DNA of 64,000 bases, taken from positions 3,906,001 through 3,970,000 of the forward strand of contig NZ_CP162495.1 in the NCBI RefSeq assembly GCF_040939125.1, in the 5' to 3' direction. The stretch's first letter is position 1. Every line of letters begins with the position of its first letter. Below, piece after piece: positions 4,234 through 63,501 of the stretch. The notes under the pieces were generated by a model. The model was not told the origin of the DNA, did no database searches, and saw nothing but the letters and a program-made list of their open reading frames with translations. The DNA comes from Clostridium sp. BJN0013. GTDB lineage: Bacteria; Bacillota; Clostridia; Clostridiales; Clostridiaceae. Both the position numbers and the translations under genes were made by a program.

Positions 4234-5427
4234 TTATTCAGATACTGTAGTAACAACACCCGAACCAACTGTTCTACCACCTTCTCTTATTGCAAATCTC
4301 AATCCTTCATGCATCGCAACAGGTGTTATAAGTTCTACATTCATATCTATATGATCCCCTGGCATTACCATTTCTACTCCCTCTGGTAATGATATTGACC
4401 CTGTTACATCTGTTGTTCTAAAATAAAACTGTGGTCTGTATCCATTGAAAAATGGTGTGTGTCTTCCACCTTCTTCTTTCTTCAATACATACACCTGCCC
4501 TACAAATTTCTTATGTGGCTTTACTGATCCCGGTTTTGATAATACCTGCCCTCTCTCTATTTCTTCTCTCTGTATCCCTCTTAATAATGCTCCTATGTTG
4601 TCTCCTGCCATAGCTTGATCCAGAAGCTTTCTAAACATTTCTACTCCTGTACATACTGTCTTTTTCTTCTCTTCTTTTAATCCTACTATCTCTACTTCGT
4701 CCCCTATCTTAAGCACTCCACTCTCTACTCTTCCTGTAGCTACTGTTCCTCTTCCTGTAATTGTGAATACATCTTCTATAGGCATTAAGAATGGCTTATC
4801 TATAGGTCTTTCTGGTGTTGGTATATAAGTATCTACTGCTTCCATTAATTCATATATACATTTAGTCGCTTCTGCATCATCTGGATTTTCAATTACCTTT
4901 AATGCACTTCCTACTATTATTGGAACATCATCTCCCGGGAATCCATATTCATTTAATAATTCCCTTACTTCCATTTCTACCAACTCTATTAATTCAGGGT
5001 CATCTACCTGATCTGATTTATTTAAAAATACTACTATATACTGTACTCCTACCCTGCTTGCCAGTAGTATATGTTCTCTTGTCTGTGGCATTGGACCATC
5101 TGCTGCACTTACTACAAGTATTGCTCCGTCCATCTGTGCTGCTCCTGTTATCATGTTCTTTACATAATCTGCATGTCCTGGACAGTCCACATGTGCATAA
5201 TGTCTATTTTCTGTCTCATATTCTACATGTGCTGTATTTATTGTTATTCCCCTTTCTTTTTCTTCCGGTGCCTTATCTATTTCATCATACTTTGTAGCAG
5301 ATGCTTTCCCTTCTTTTGCTAATACCATTGTTATTGCTGCTGTCAATGTAGTTTTACCATGGTCTACGTGTCCTATTGTTCCTATGTTTACATGTGGTTT
5401 TGTTCTCTCAAACTTTTCTTTTGACAT
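4234..5427 (-). CDS. tuf: Elongation factor Tu (second copy in transcription order)
   Basis: EF-Tu is the GTPase that delivers aminoacyl-tRNA to the ribosome. The 397-residue protein has G1 GHVDHGKT at about residues 19-26, the G3 motif DCPGH, and G4 as NKSD (commonly NKCD). Two beta-barrel domains follow and the protein ends VVTTVSE. It follows fusA in the classical rpsL-rpsG-fusA-tuf order. It is identical in protein and, as far as I can compare, in DNA to the copy at 20315-21508. The identical block (4224-5441) slightly exceeds the gene and includes the ribosome site, which points to gene conversion. Confidence 0.98.
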
Positions 5428-8677: not shown

Positions 8678-8827
8678 ATTTATCCAAAGGTTGGAATTAG
8701 CTAACACCCTCAGTTTCTTCAAAGAGAAGATGAGCAGTGTTACACATCCCTGAATAAGTTTTTCTAAAGTTCAAATAGAAAAGCATTCCTTGCGACAAAC
8801 TCCACCTGAATCTAAGAATCACTTGAT
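8678..8827 (+). repeat. Interspersed structured element, copy A
   Basis: This 150-bp element begins ATTTATCC and ends ATCACTTGAT, like the other copies at 46896, 48101 and 56149. It shares AATTAGCTAACACCC with copy D and CTCCACCTGAA near its 3' end with copy B. It lies between the L7Ae-like gene and rpsL, in the orientation opposite to the operon, so the ribosomal transcript carries its complement. It has no coding capacity. Confidence 0.75.
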
Positions 8828-20314: not shown

Positions 20315-21508
20315 TTATTCAGATACTGTAGTAACAACACCCGAACCAACTGTTCTACCACCTTCTCTTATTGCAAATCTCAATCCTTCATGCATCGCAA
20401 CAGGTGTTATAAGTTCTACATTCATATCTATATGATCCCCTGGCATTACCATTTCTACTCCCTCTGGTAATGATATTGACCCTGTTACATCTGTTGTTCT
20501 AAAATAAAACTGTGGTCTGTATCCATTGAAAAATGGTGTGTGTCTTCCACCTTCTTCTTTCTTCAATACATACACCTGCCCTACAAATTTCTTATGTGGC
20601 TTTACTGATCCCGGTTTTGATAATACCTGCCCTCTCTCTATTTCTTCTCTCTGTATCCCTCTTAATAATGCTCCTATGTTGTCTCCTGCCATAGCTTGAT
20701 CCAGAAGCTTTCTAAACATTTCTACTCCTGTACATACTGTCTTTTTCTTCTCTTCTTTTAATCCTACTATCTCTACTTCGTCCCCTATCTTAAGCACTCC
20801 ACTCTCTACTCTTCCTGTAGCTACTGTTCCTCTTCCTGTAATTGTGAATACATCTTCTATAGGCATTAAGAATGGCTTATCTATAGGTCTTTCTGGTGTT
20901 GGTATATAAGTATCTACTGCTTCCATTAATTCATATATACATTTAGTCGCTTCTGCATCATCTGGATTTTCAATTACCTTTAATGCACTTCCTACTATTA
21001 TTGGAACATCATCTCCCGGGAATCCATATTCATTTAATAATTCCCTTACTTCCATTTCTACCAACTCTATTAATTCAGGGTCATCTACCTGATCTGATTT
21101 ATTTAAAAATACTACTATATACTGTACTCCTACCCTGCTTGCCAGTAGTATATGTTCTCTTGTCTGTGGCATTGGACCATCTGCTGCACTTACTACAAGT
21201 ATTGCTCCGTCCATCTGTGCTGCTCCTGTTATCATGTTCTTTACATAATCTGCATGTCCTGGACAGTCCACATGTGCATAATGTCTATTTTCTGTCTCAT
21301 ATTCTACATGTGCTGTATTTATTGTTATTCCCCTTTCTTTTTCTTCCGGTGCCTTATCTATTTCATCATACTTTGTAGCAGATGCTTTCCCTTCTTTTGC
21401 TAATACCATTGTTATTGCTGCTGTCAATGTAGTTTTACCATGGTCTACGTGTCCTATTGTTCCTATGTTTACATGTGGTTTTGTTCTCTCAAACTTTTCT
21501 TTTGACAT
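20315..21508 (-). CDS. tuf: Elongation factor Tu (first copy in transcription order)
   Basis: This 397-residue EF-Tu is identical to the one encoded at 4234-5427. It follows tRNA-Gly and tRNA-Thr and is transcribed with them from the promoter at 21803-21831, a tRNA-tuf arrangement known from other bacteria. The flanking DNA differs completely from that of the other copy outside 20305-21522. The identity is therefore restricted to the gene, its ribosome site and a few bases after the stop. This pattern suggests ongoing gene conversion between the two loci. Confidence 0.98.
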
Positions 21509-46895: not shown

Positions 46896-47046
46896 ATCAA
46901 GTGATTATTAGGTTCAGGTGGAGTTTGCTTATAAGAAATGCTTTTTCCATCTGAACCTTAAAAGAACTTATCCAGGCACATAGCAGTGCTTATATCCCAC
47001 TTTAAAGAATATGGGAACATTAGTTAATTGCCGCGTTCGGATAAAT
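46896..47046 (-). repeat. Interspersed structured element, copy B
   Basis: A 151-bp copy on the minus strand, 31 bases upstream of murD. It begins TTTATCC and its inner arm GGATAAG can close a stem. An internal hairpin GCAC-TGCTAT-GTGC replaces the GAGCA/TGCTC pair of copy D. The 3' hairpin GGTTCAGATGGA pairs with TCCACCTGAACC. If murD is transcribed from further upstream, this element is in its leader. Confidence 0.78.
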
Positions 47047-47371: not shown

Positions 47372-48094
47372 TATCTAGAATACCACAGGTTTTACCTGTG
47401 GTTCCGGAAAGCTTATAGCTATGAGTAGGAAAAAGAAAAACTCCAATATAAAATAGAAGTAGGTTTGCCAACCACAACTAAAATATATTGGAGGTGTGTC
47501 CGAAATGGACAATAGTAGTTTAGCACACAGCAAGTGGAATTGTAAATATCATATAGTTTTTGCACCAAAGTATAGGAGACAAATAATATATGGAAAGATA
47601 AAAGCGGATATAGGTGTAATCTTAAGGAAACTATGTGAACAAAAAGGGGTTAAAATTATTGAGGCTAATGCATGTAAAGATCATATACATATGCTTATAA
47701 GTATACCACCTAAATTAAGTGTATCGCAGTTTATGGGATATCTTATATGATTTTTGACAGACATGCAAATTTAAAATATAGATATGGAAATAGACAGTTT
47801 TGGTGTAAAGGGTACTATGTTGATACTGTAGGAAGGAATAAAAAAGTCATAGCAGAGTATATAAAAAATCAGATACAGGAAGATTTAGCATACGAACAAA
47901 TGAGTTTGAAAGAATATATTGACCCGTTTACGGGTGAGACAGTAAAAAAAGGTAAAAAATAAAGCACCTTTTAGGTGCAGCCTGTAAAGGCATATGCGGT
48001 TGGCACACCGTTCAGTGTGCGAGTAGCACAGCCAGTAACATGCCCTTATAGGGCTAGAGCAAACCACCCGTTTTACGGGTGGTGATGATTGTCG
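47360..48094 (+). mobile_element. IS200/IS605-family element, tnpA only, degenerate
   Basis: The element has a left-end hairpin ACCACAGG-TTTT-ACCTGTGGT (47382-47402), a Y1 transposase gene with an internal deletion, and a right-end hairpin ACCACCCG-TTTT-ACGGGTGGT (48063-48083). Paired hairpins with TTTT loops at both ends and no terminal inverted repeats are typical of this family. The exact cleavage sites are estimated. Between tnpA and the right end are about 100 bases with further short hairpins. No tnpB is present. Confidence 0.75.
47505..47962 (+). pseudogene. tnpA: IS200-type Y1 transposase, frame-disrupted
   Basis: The first part (MDNSSLAHSKWNCKYHIVFAPKYRRQ ... KDHIHMLISIPPKLSVSQFMGYL) holds the HUH metal site (HIH). 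The second part (MIFDRHANLKYRYGNRQFWCKGYYVDTV ...) holds the catalytic tyrosine region. Between them the usual KGKSS segment is missing and the frame shifts near 47740-47748, leaving two frames (stop at 47748-47750; the second frame from 47747). All catalytic residues are present but on separate polypeptides. A good GGAGGTG ribosome site precedes the first part. Confidence 0.85.
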
Positions 48095-48100
48095 TAAAAT

Positions 48101-48243
48101 ATTTATTCGAAGGCGACAATCAGCTGACGCCCCCAGCTTCTTTAAAGTGAAGGATGAACACTGCTATGCCCATAGATAAGTTCTTCTAAGGTTCAAGATG
48201 AAGAAAAAAGTATTCCTCATGTTGAACCTTAGAAGAACTTGAT
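48101..48243 (+). repeat. Interspersed structured element, copy C
   Basis: A 143-bp copy on the plus strand that begins 7 bases after the estimated IS200 right end and ends 17 bases from the glyS stop. Its 3' half is the most symmetrical of the four. It is a 24-bp hairpin with a single mismatch, with arms at about 48175-48199 and 48217-48240. It shares TTCTTTAAAGTG and CACTGCTATG with copy B. Confidence 0.78.
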
Positions 48244-56148: not shown

Positions 56149-56301
56149 ATTAGGTGATTTTCAGGTTTAGTGGACTTTGCTCATAAGAAATACTTTTCTC
56201 AATCTGAATCTTAGAAAAACTTATAAAAGAGCATAACAGTGCTCATCCTCCCCACTTTGAAAAAGATGGGGGTGTTAGCTAATTGCCACCTTAGGATAAA
56301 T
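56149..56301 (-). repeat. Interspersed structured element, copy D
   Basis: A 153-bp copy on the minus strand that begins exactly at the ftsH stop codon, so it forms the 3' untranslated region of ftsH. It contains CCCC...GGGG and GAGCA...TGCTC hairpins, and AATTAGCTAACACCC as in copy A. The 3' hairpin is more decayed than in B and C. Confidence 0.78.
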
Positions 56302-58103
56302 TAAACTTGAGCAAATATCTCTTCAAATTCACTTGCTTCAAGTTTTTCTTTTTCTAAAAGTTTTTCTGCCACAGCTTTAAGTCTGTTCATATTTTCCGAA
56401 AGAAGCTTTTCAGCTTTATCGTATCCTTCATCTATTAATTTTCTTATCTCTTTATCTATTTCAAAAGCCACTTCTTCACTGAAATTTCTTCCTTTTCCTA
56501 AATCTCTTCCCAAAAATACTTCATCATGACCTGAACCAAATGCAATAGGTCCCAAATCACTCATACCATAATCCATTACCATCTTTTTAGCTATAGTAGT
56601 TGCTCTATCAATATCATTTTTAGCTCCTGTACTTATATCACCTATAACCAATTTTTCTGCTACTCTACCTCCCAAAAGTCCTACAATCTCATCTTTAAGC
56701 TTAGCACTTGATGTATAGACACTATCCTTTTCTGGAAGATGCATTGTATATCCTCCTGCCATTCCTCTTGGTATTATACTTATTTCATGTACAGGGTCAG
56801 AATTAGGTAACAACTTCATTACCACTGCATGACCTGCTTCATGATAAGCTGTAAGCCTTTTATCTTCATCATCGATCACTCTACTTCTTTTTTCAGGACC
56901 TGCTATTACTCTAGTCACTGCTTCCTCCAATTCATTCATACCTATTAGATCTTTATTATTTCTAACTGCCAAAAGTGCAGATTCATTCATAAGATTTTCT
57001 AAATCCGCCCCTGTAAATCCAGGTGTTCTCTTGGCCAGAACATCTAATTTTACTTCATCTGCTAAATGTTTGTTTCTAGAATGCACTTTAAGAATTTCTT
57101 CTCTACCTTTAATATCAGGTGCCCCTACAAGTATTCTTCTATCAAATCTTCCCGGTCTTAAAAGTGCAGGATCTAATATATCAGGTCTATTTGTTGCAGC
57201 TATCATAATTATTCCCTCATTGACTCCAAAGCCATCCATTTCAACTAAAAGTTGATTCAATGTTTGCTCTCTTTCATCATGTCCTCCGCCAAGTCCTGCT
57301 CCTCTTTGCCTTCCAACTGCATCTATTTCATCTATAAATACTATACATGGCGAATTTTTCTTTGCCTGATCAAACAAATCTCTTACCCTTGAAGCTCCCA
57401 CACCAACAAACATTTCAACAAAATCTGAACCTGATATGCTGAAAAATGGCACTCCTGCTTCACCAGATATAGCTTTAGCCAAAAGTGTCTTGCCAGTTCC
57501 TGGAGGACCTACAAGTAAAACCCCCTTAGGAATTCTAGCTCCCATTTCTATATATTTTTTAGGTTGTTTCAAAAAATCCACTATTTCCGCTAATTCTTCT
57601 TTTTCCTCATCTGCTCCAGCTACATCTGCAAAAGTTACTTTTTTCTTATCTGGTGTAGCCATTTTAGCCCTACTCTTACCAAAATTCATAACACTTCGAT
57701 TTCCTCCACCACCTTGAGATTGTTGCATAAACATAAACCAAAATGCTACAAGCATAAGTATTAGAAGAATTGTCGGCAAATATTGTACCCACATAGGTAT
57801 TGTAGCGGGCTTGAGATATATTTCTTGAACTTCTCCCTCTTTAGGATGTTCACCTATAAATTGAAATAATCTTTCAGATGGAACTACTGTTTCATATGCT
57901 GTTCCATTTTTCAAACTACCTTGAACTGTCATTTTATCTTCTCTAAGCTGAAAATTTTTAATATCATTACTTAACCAATATTTCTGAAAATCACTAAAAC
58001 TAATGGCTGTTGAACTTTCATTGGTTCTTACCAACCACAATGCTGAAAGAATCACTAATATAAAAACTATAACCCAGGCCGTTGCACTTGAAAATTTTTT
58101 CAT
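56301..58103 (-). CDS. ftsH: ATP-dependent zinc metalloprotease FtsH
   Basis: A membrane-anchored AAA+ protease of 600 residues. Two transmembrane segments (about residues 7-25 and 108-126) flank an extracytoplasmic domain. The AAA module has Walker [16 protein letters not shown] near 197, Walker [11 protein letters not shown] and the arginine-finger region [20 protein letters not shown]. The zinc site HEAGH is near residue 420. It follows hpt after about 80 bases with its own promoter, in the tilS-hpt-ftsH order of Firmicutes. Confidence 0.98.
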
Positions 58104-62960: not shown

Positions 62961-63037
62961 TGGTAGCGGAAATAGGAATCGAACCTACGACACTTCGGGT
63001 ATGAACCGAATGCTCTAGCCAACTGAGCTATTCCGCC
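62961..63037 (-). tRNA. tRNA-Met (CAT), elongator, copy 2
   Basis: A 77-base cloverleaf with CCA starting GGCGGAATAGCTCAG, TTCATAC anticodon loop. It differs from the copy at 63239 by one base in the T loop (GGTTCGATTCC against GGTTCAATTCC). It belongs to the second unit of a tandem duplication. Confidence 0.94.
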
Positions 63038-63050
63038 TTATATACAATTT

Positions 63051-63126
<76 letters not shown>

Positions 63127-63134
63127 CTATATTT

Positions 63135-63223
63135 TGGTGCTGAAGACCGGAATCGAACCGGTACGGGTTTTAAAGCCCGCAGGATTTTAAGTCCTGTGCG
63201 TCTGCCTGTTCCGCCACTCCAGC
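63135..63223 (-). tRNA. tRNA-Leu (TAA), copy 2
   Basis: An 89-base class II tRNA with long variable arm (GGGCTTTAAAACCC), CTTAAAA anticodon loop, anticodon TAA, CCA encoded. Identical to the copy at 63413. Confidence 0.95.
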
Positions 63224-63238
63224 TAAATTTTTTTTAAA

Positions 63239-63315
63239 TGGTAGCGGAAATAGGAATTGAACCTACGACACTTCGGGTATGAACCGAATGCTCTAGCCAA
63301 CTGAGCTATTCCGCC
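63239..63315 (-). tRNA. tRNA-Met (CAT), elongator, copy 1
   Basis: A 77-base cloverleaf with CCA, TTCATAC anticodon loop. It is the last RNA of the first Leu-fMet-Met unit in transcription order. Confidence 0.94.
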
Positions 63316-63329
63316 TTATTATACAATTT

Positions 63330-63405
<76 letters not shown>

Positions 63406-63412
63406 CTATTTT

Positions 63413-63501
63413 TGGTGCTGAAGACCGGAATCGAACCGGTACGGGTTTTAAAGCCCGCAGGATTTTAAGTCCTGTGCGTCTGCCTGTTCCGCCACTCCAG
63501 C
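63413..63501 (-). tRNA. tRNA-Leu (TAA), copy 1
   Basis: An 89-base class II tRNA, anticodon TAA, CCA encoded. It is the first gene of the tRNA cluster, about 25 bases after the predicted transcription start. Confidence 0.95.

Follow-up and report, generated by a model that had tools for sequence, protein, structure and literature searches.

Comparative analysis of a 64,000-nucleotide stretch of the Clostridium sp. BJN0013 genome (hereafter the window) and of related genomes uncovered a high-copy family of short interspersed elements that is plainly mobile, inserts at the fixed pentamer TTTAT, ends in a pentamer of its own, and has a covarying fold in which one hairpin (P4) resembles the left-end hairpin of IS605 transposons. 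In our interpretation the family is probably non-autonomous and PATE-like, with its movement supplied in trans by an IS200/IS605-type transposase. An earlier note on the window, made from its letters, had weighed a structured RNA against a non-autonomous mobile element, an interpretation that is partly supported by the results below.

Copies in the window and distribution of the family

The four copies described in the earlier note lie at the places and on the strands given there, but their 5′ edge was off by one base. The shared unit begins with TTTAT at 8679 (+), 47045 (-), 48102 (+), and 56300 (-) and ends at 8827, 46896, 48243, and 56149, respectively, with a mean column identity of 81% among copies A to D. 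Copy B, the element under study (46896..47045, minus strand), scores 164.9 bits with a covariance model (R1) of the family. Its 5′ domain (46968..47045), for which the structure was counted on the alignment described below and the places by hand, runs from TTTATCC through helices P1 to P4 up to GGATAA, and encloses the P4 hairpin (TTCCCAT...GTGGGAT; 46994..47017), whose likeness to the IS605 left-end hairpin is seen at the level of the family. It is followed by an imperfect 3′ hairpin, P5 (46901..46967), recognized from fold and covariation, and by a terminal TTGAT (46896..46900), recognized from its letters and from the end counts of the family.

Copy A (8679..8827, plus strand) has TTTAT at its 5′ end and TTGAT at its 3′ end. 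It lies antisense between genes of what we take, from ORF sizes, to be a ribosomal protein and RNA polymerase cluster. A copy is found at the equivalent place in two relatives (G003 and G004); a third (G006) has none, and the junction there is unclean. Copy C (48102..48243, plus strand) has a near-perfect 3′ hairpin with a shortened loop, and copy D (56149..56300, minus strand) has the 3′ end CTAAT and adjoins the stop codon of the minus-strand ORF at 56301-58103, directly behind it.

Several other features of the window were recorded. An IS200-like tnpA split into two frames (95 and 82 codons; 47496-47963) lies directly before copy C, and the sequence ...AAAATATTTATT behind it continues into the TTTAT of that copy. 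The genome's own IS200 (nine near-identical copies, two with a stop) was considered as a mobiliser and rejected, as its ends and hairpins are unlike those of the element. In G005, another family copy, consisting of the 5′ part only (L138:15151-15223), lies beside the counterpart of the gene that adjoins copy C. Two 397-aa ORFs (4234-5427 and 20315-21508), presumably elongation factor Tu genes, have an identical 300-nt stretch, and a tandem-repeated set of three tRNAs (Met-Met-Leu; 62961-63501) is 98-100% alike between repeats.

That the repeat forms an interspersed family is borne out genome-wide. BLAST searches within the genome, which is a single 4.10-Mb contig, returned at least 40 places, all 40 of those listed having E ≤ 1.1e-31, and covariance model R1, built from 43 copies of this same genome, identified at least 150 copies, with E ≤ 2.1e-11 for all 150 places listed. 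The copies are nearly all intergenic, as the earlier note had proposed for its four: 28 of 29 tested copies of the genome do not overlap any ORF of at least 100 aa by more than 30 nt. The family extends well beyond this strain. Within the genus, R1 matches 9 of 13 genomes (E ≤ 1e-6) and 81 of 206 Clostridiaceae genomes, representing 23 of 46 genera (E ≤ 1e-4), while a second model built from 40 diverse copies (R2) matches 31 of 391 sampled Clostridia genomes, some weakly, with 17 of the 31 outside Clostridiaceae. A pattern of 22 fixed bases, searched in named genomes, returned at least 80 loci; the matches listed include C. ljungdahlii, C. ragsdalei, C. carboxidivorans, C. mobile, C. pascui, C. 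acidisoli, C. akagii, C. bovifaecis, and C. frigidicarnis, as well as Desulfosporosinus species and one Syntrophomonadaceae MAG outside Clostridium. No match was found in phages with one element query, nor in plasmids with two of three queries; the third gave two short, weak plasmid matches, one over the P4 part in a Clostridiaceae plasmid.

The earlier note could not place the repeat in a named family, and we likewise found no published description, whether in Rfam or among the open-licence papers searched. Every Rfam family stays below its threshold on all four window copies, and a permissive scan extended to ten other loci likewise found no family above threshold over an element; Srn266 came closest (36.3 bits vs. 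63, E=0.002). Two named RNAs were found near copies: a RAGATH-18 RNA (L012:1236-1309, 74.9 bits) about 190 nt from a copy and beside a tnpB gene (L365), and a SAM riboswitch (L031:508-608, 80.3 bits) about 60 nt from a copy.

Fold and covariation

The fold was characterized on an alignment of 40 diverse copies (A6). Helix P1 is formed by TTATC[C/T] pairing with [G/A]GATAA; P2 consists of three pairs and occurs as GAC/GTC, AGC/GCT, GGC/GCC, CGC/GCG, TGC/GCA, GTC/GAC, and GAT/ATC variants; P3 has up to seven pairs; P4 is CTCCCA/TGGGAG; and P5 is the 3′ hairpin. Three structures that the earlier note had read from the window copies are present across the 40 copies: a long hairpin on the 3′ side, an outer pair TTATCC/GGATAA, and a hairpin of CCCC with GGGG. 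The small hairpin proposed there (GCAC/GTGC in copy B) did not hold up as a family trait, as it pairs in 103 of 172 cells over 43 copies, whereas P2 and P3, which draw on those very bases, do so in 228 of 258 cells (43 copies). Pairing is observed in 89.9% of the 1582 cells of A6, a measure favoured by the structure having been set by eye on these same copies. Persistent mismatches occur at pair 19-66, which fails in 23 of 40 rows, and at pair 95-155, which fails in 33 of 40.

Paired changes had been proposed from the window, and covariation across many copies had been set beforehand as a test of the proposal. Both sides change in 24 of the 40 pairs of A6 against a shuffled mean of 14.2, and the covariation score of 0.293 compares with 0.115 (sd 0.006) for shuffled and at most 0.074 for slid alignments. 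RNAalifold run on default alignments found little structure. In every one of the 40 rows, the base that follows ATAA is complementary to the one preceding the 3′ TT (25 G-C, 14 C-G, and 1 A-T), so that GGATAA can pair either with the 5′ TTAT plus CC or, with one bulge, with the 3′ end.

The further proposal that these paired changes reflect selection on a resident RNA was not sustained. For an RNA under selection in place, G·U replacements would be expected to predominate; of those at consensus G-C pairs in 43 copies of this genome, 50 are G·U and 65 are A·C (p=0.19), giving no sign that pairing is maintained copy by copy. The covariation separates lineages of the element, with no sign in this genome of selection on resident RNAs, and the conserved fold can equally be that of single-stranded DNA. 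We caution that covariation alone does not prove a functional RNA, since the fold of a mobile single-stranded DNA could covary too.

Insertion sites, ends, and variant copies

The family is mobile, a possibility that the earlier note had raised. At least 134 matches are found in G173, and median pairwise identity is 0.963 among 20 G173 copies and 0.977 among 12 G179 copies, compared with 0.808 in this genome (120 random pairs of 43 copies), all three sets being top-scoring copies. The family therefore moved recently elsewhere and looks old here, where the copies fetched are old and diverged. The site of copy B is occupied here and in G003 and G004, and empty in G002, G006, and G008. In G002 the flanks ...TATAAATTAT and TGTAATGG adjoin each other, and here ...TATAAATTTAT and TGTAATAGG enclose the element; the target in the empty G002 site reads ATTAT, not TTTAT. 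In G017, two copies lie inside one gene that we take, from its motifs, to be comM-like, and its frame is continuous over both sites once the element body and one of the two TTTAT are omitted. Other empty sites are unclean (G006 at the site of copy A, and this genome at a G004 insertion), and a larger replacement separates the relatives at the site of copy D. At two loci (L121 and L113), from two genera (G173 and G017), a gene for a Y1 transposase of ~200 aa, presumably of RAYT type, adjoins the comM-like gene, and in L113 it runs into that gene's remainder.

Ends were counted in 185 distinct copies selected for reaching both ends of the profile. The 5′ pentamer is TTTAT in 183 of them, while the 3′ pentamer is TTGAT in 110, TTTAT in 72, and TTAAT in three. 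Since the two pentamers are unlike in 114 of the 185 copies, insertion does not produce a simple target duplication. Ordinary duplication is rejected for the TTGAT lineages; where TTTAT stands at both ends, a duplication of 5 bp would look identical. Tandem copies have a single common pentamer (L100 and L104; TTGAT in L165). By-eye comparison of the ends (TTTATCCGA... and ...CACTTGAT or ...CTGTTTAT) found no terminal inverted repeats. IS200/IS605 elements are described as inserting 3′ of a fixed target and carrying their own right cleavage site (PMC8612924, PMC5934647), and the ends of the family follow this pattern, with the 5′ side at a fixed TTTAT and a 3′ terminal pentamer belonging to the element.

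Copies examined range from ~130 to 205 nt, the longer ones carrying nested units. In the ~200-nt copies of this genome (L186-L190), a 53-nt unit (CCCCTAAAGGATAACG-hairpin-CTGTTAAT) sits by the foot of P5 and varies by single letters between these five copies; it is itself a GGATAAC-hairpin-TTAAT mini-element, and a similar unit occurs in C. ljungdahlii (L258). Other nested units occupy the loop of P4 or the stretch separating P4 from P3 (loci with units include L214, L196, L226, and L169), and a Desulfosporosinus copy has a P4-loop insert of ~120 nt. Partial copies also occur. Matches to the 3′ hairpin or part of it were found alone in this genome at L003:1226-1313, L007:2140-2179, L015:266-340, and L033:155-188, the first of these being nearly an inverted repeat (ATCAAGTGATTCTTA...AAGAATCACTTGAT), and the L138 copy keeps the 5′ part alone.

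An autonomous long form, in which a split element would hold a gene between its ends, was sought at 97 loci with separate 5′ and 3′ profiles, and none was found. A 3′ mate accompanies 115 of 129 matches to the 5′ profile, and of the 14 unmated ones the 11 examined are copies with nested units or deletions, or fragments. Among 82 unmated 3′ matches, 79 overlap a 3′ match on the opposite strand, representing a palindrome read twice; once these double readings are removed, four distinct 3′-only units of greater strength (L213, L238, L242, and L257) and three weak matches remain. No tnpA or tnpB was found between element ends, and the copies examined are too short for such a gene.

Candidate transposase and alternative explanations

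A search for Y1 transposases in five genomes found a TnpA of 135-147 aa followed by TnpB in G173, G179, G148, and G017. The IS605 elements of Clostridiaceae (L105-L108 and L322-L359) encode a TnpA of 132-147 aa and TnpB, and their left-end hairpin resembles P4. A regular expression for P4 was applied to both strands of loci that had been picked because they hold elements or transposase genes, some of them overlapping (3.29 Mb of strand sequence in total), and gave 139 matches. Of these, 116 lie behind a TTATCC-like motif and are elements, four are further elements (L219 twice, L183, and L283), and 17 lie at one end or the other, left or right, in a total of 12 distinct IS605 elements. The two others, the sole matches outside elements and IS605 ends, are in L243 (6107-6129, CCCCCACTTGTTAAAAGTGGGGG).

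Local alignment of 40 element 5′ domains with 20 IS605 left ends, some of them duplicated, gave a median score of 20.5 vs. 12.5 for a crude control of 2-base-block shuffles, with overlapping ranges (13.5-27.5 and 10-17). In the best pair shown, element L064 and IS605 L354 have CGTAAT and CTCCYATCTTCTAT..AAGTGGGAGAT in common and agree at 30 of the 32 bases that align outside a single 2-base gap. This likeness takes in the 5′ foot of the hairpin (CGTAAT), which is where the guide of IS608 is described to lie (PMC5934647). Furthermore, a profile of the element's 5′ part found the IS605 left end, on the right strand and at the right place, at 16 of 30 tnpA loci, although each match is weak alone (E 0.0013-0.23); the remaining 14 gave no match. 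The profile also matched six of eight further G002 stretches (the L347 and L329 copies recur as two of the eight), two G148 loci with tnpB (L363 and L367), and the stretch L279 (E=0.08). An element copy lies near 3 of 24 tnpB loci, where the 3′ profile matched nothing else.

Other observations weigh against the link to this IS605. The resembling IS605 follows TTTAAC (once TTTGAC) rather than TTTAT, and its putative right boundary, judged by eye, is ...GTTCAC. Its right-end hairpin (CCCCCACTTCTATAAGTGGGGG) resembles its own left-end hairpin, as in IS608, for which left and right hairpins are described as the same (PMC7290912), and has no counterpart in P5. A matching TnpA (E ≤ 1e-35) was detected in 25 of 206 Clostridiaceae genomes, 14 of them with the element (p=0.08), and at this limit is absent from the present genome and from 67 of the 81 element-bearing ones. 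The scarcity of TnpA and the mismatch of target and right hairpin imply either that a wider set of TnpA enzymes serves the element or that P4 was taken from IS605 and another enzyme acts.

Orientation relative to replication lends weak support to a single-strand route. Copies in the predicted lagging-strand sense outnumber the others 87:63 among the matches listed in this genome (p=0.06, with the origin assumed at base 1 and the terminus at half length; p=0.011-0.06 with other assumed termini) and 74:46 among those listed in seven other genomes (p=0.013; related genomes, not independent), with no bias in G006 (7:8) or G179 (9:9).

Other mobilizing enzymes would explain part of these data. Under site-specific recombination, or with a different DNA transposase that works at TTTAT and has no link to IS605, the P4 likeness would be borrowed or convergent. 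Such action at TTTAT has been proposed in the literature for the Bacillus cereus bcr repeats, and the TTTAT-like pentamers at both ends, the single pentamer shared by tandem copies, and a P4 likeness unaccompanied by likeness at the 3′ end are consistent with it. We nevertheless judge this unlikely, given the lack of terminal inverted repeats, the unlike ends of 114 of 185 copies, and the near confinement of P4-like hairpins to elements and IS605 ends among loci chosen for such elements. Still less likely is a REP/RAYT-like system, in which the presumed RAYT-type enzyme encoded beside the comM-like gene at two loci would move the element. Copies do lie close to this gene in G173, G017, and G005, and the six genus genomes with the gene all match the element (G012 by one match at E=8.4e-5, and none at the stricter limit); co-occurrence counted on strong gene matches (E ≤ 1e-40) gives p=0.053 (28 genomes with both, 53 with the element only, 27 with the gene only, and 98 with neither). 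At E ≤ 1e-20, however, where 97 genomes have the gene, the association with the element over the 206 genomes is not significant (43 both, 38 element only, 54 gene only, and 71 neither; p=0.20), only 3 of 37 RAYT-type loci have a copy within ~1.5 kb, and this genome has no match to the gene.

Explanations centred on RNA fare worse. The view that selection maintains each copy in place as a functional structured RNA or a cis-regulatory RNA element would agree with the strong covariation, with the folding z-scores of copies B (-3.5) and C (-6.0) against shuffles, and with the placement of extra units of the 5′ domain in its loops and junctions, rather than inside helices, in the copies examined. 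Yet copies A (-1.2) and D (-0.7) fold little or no better than shuffles, G·U shows no excess over A·C in this genome, relatives differ in whether a site is occupied, an insertion can fall in a coding gene, as in G017, and the neighbouring genes of 29 copies are found in every orientation class (12, 9, 5, and 3), so we consider a resident RNA highly improbable. An RNA-mediated element moved in trans by a reverse transcriptase, to which the conservation of the fold on one strand and the existence of 3′-only copies (four partial ones here and four stronger units among the 97 loci) might point, is hardly credible, as no 3′ tail is seen, the 5′ end is constant in full copies, the L003 copy forms a palindromic hairpin unit and is not clearly truncated at its 5′ end, and L138 keeps the 5′ part alone.

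Among known systems, PATEs, described in Haloquadratum and others, lack terminal inverted repeats and a transposase gene, and have palindromes near their ends that are like IS605-type ends, along with a conserved terminal oligonucleotide representing the target (PMC3119063, PMC7290912); small repeats nested in the Haloquadratum palindromes have also been described (PMC3119063). The present element is similar in having no terminal inverted repeats, imperfect palindromes near both ends (P1-P4 and P5), a conserved left-flank target with no simple duplication of it, a length too short for a transposase gene, and small nested inserts. Unlike PATEs, only one of its two hairpins (P4, not P5) resembles that of IS605, its 5′ palindrome is a four-helix covarying stem, its target differs from that of the resembling IS605, and the family is common to many genera of a class. 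The nearest repeat by description is bcr1 of the B. cereus group, which is intergenic, 147-167 bp long, present in up to 130 copies, has a predicted structure and a TTTAT motif, and has been called MITE-like (PMC6542083, PMC3446304, PMC2267715). Compared by description alone, the two are alike in size, intergenic location, copy number, structure, and TTTAT, and their hosts belong to different classes; three element copies had no match in Bacillus plasmids (E limits 1e-5, 10, and 1), a collection that may lack bcr1-bearing plasmids. On these comparisons, the family would appear to be a class-wide PATE-like group with an unusually elaborate covarying fold. REP sequences and REPINs are likewise high-copy intergenic imperfect hairpins, and are moved in trans by a Y1 transposase. 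The element resembles them in copy number, location, and hairpins, but is larger and multi-helix and shows no significant association with RAYT-type genes. Finally, IS605 of Clostridiaceae differs in coding for tnpA and tnpB, in its TTTAAC target, and in having a right-end hairpin of the same type as the left.

For the PATE-like element that we favour, two long imperfect hairpins, the P1-P4 domain and P5, flank a central GGATAA, with the element seated directly 3′ of its TTTAT target and ending in its own TTGAT or TTTAT. A putative IS200/IS605-type Y1 (HUH) transposase, supplied in trans, would bind the P4 hairpin, excise the folded strand as a single-stranded circle, and paste it 3′ of a new TTTAT. 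GGATAA, by pairing with the 5′ TTAT plus CC or, bulged, with the 3′ end, could act as a guide. A bolder form of this model, which we regard as speculative and unlikely, is that these are class-wide transposons moving as single strands, in which the entire element serves as a single folded recognition domain. GGATAA would then switch its pairing between the target (5′ TTAT plus CC) and the 3′ end of the element itself, one guide serving both ends, and the protein would read mainly the shape of the P2-P3 stem, leaving its letters free; the family would be a parasite of IS605 TnpA with its target reprogrammed from TTTAAC to TTTAT.

This high-copy repeat family reaches acetogens such as C. ljungdahlii and C. 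carboxidivorans. With its variants of target and guide, it may provide a natural series for testing how HUH enzymes choose their targets by base pairing.
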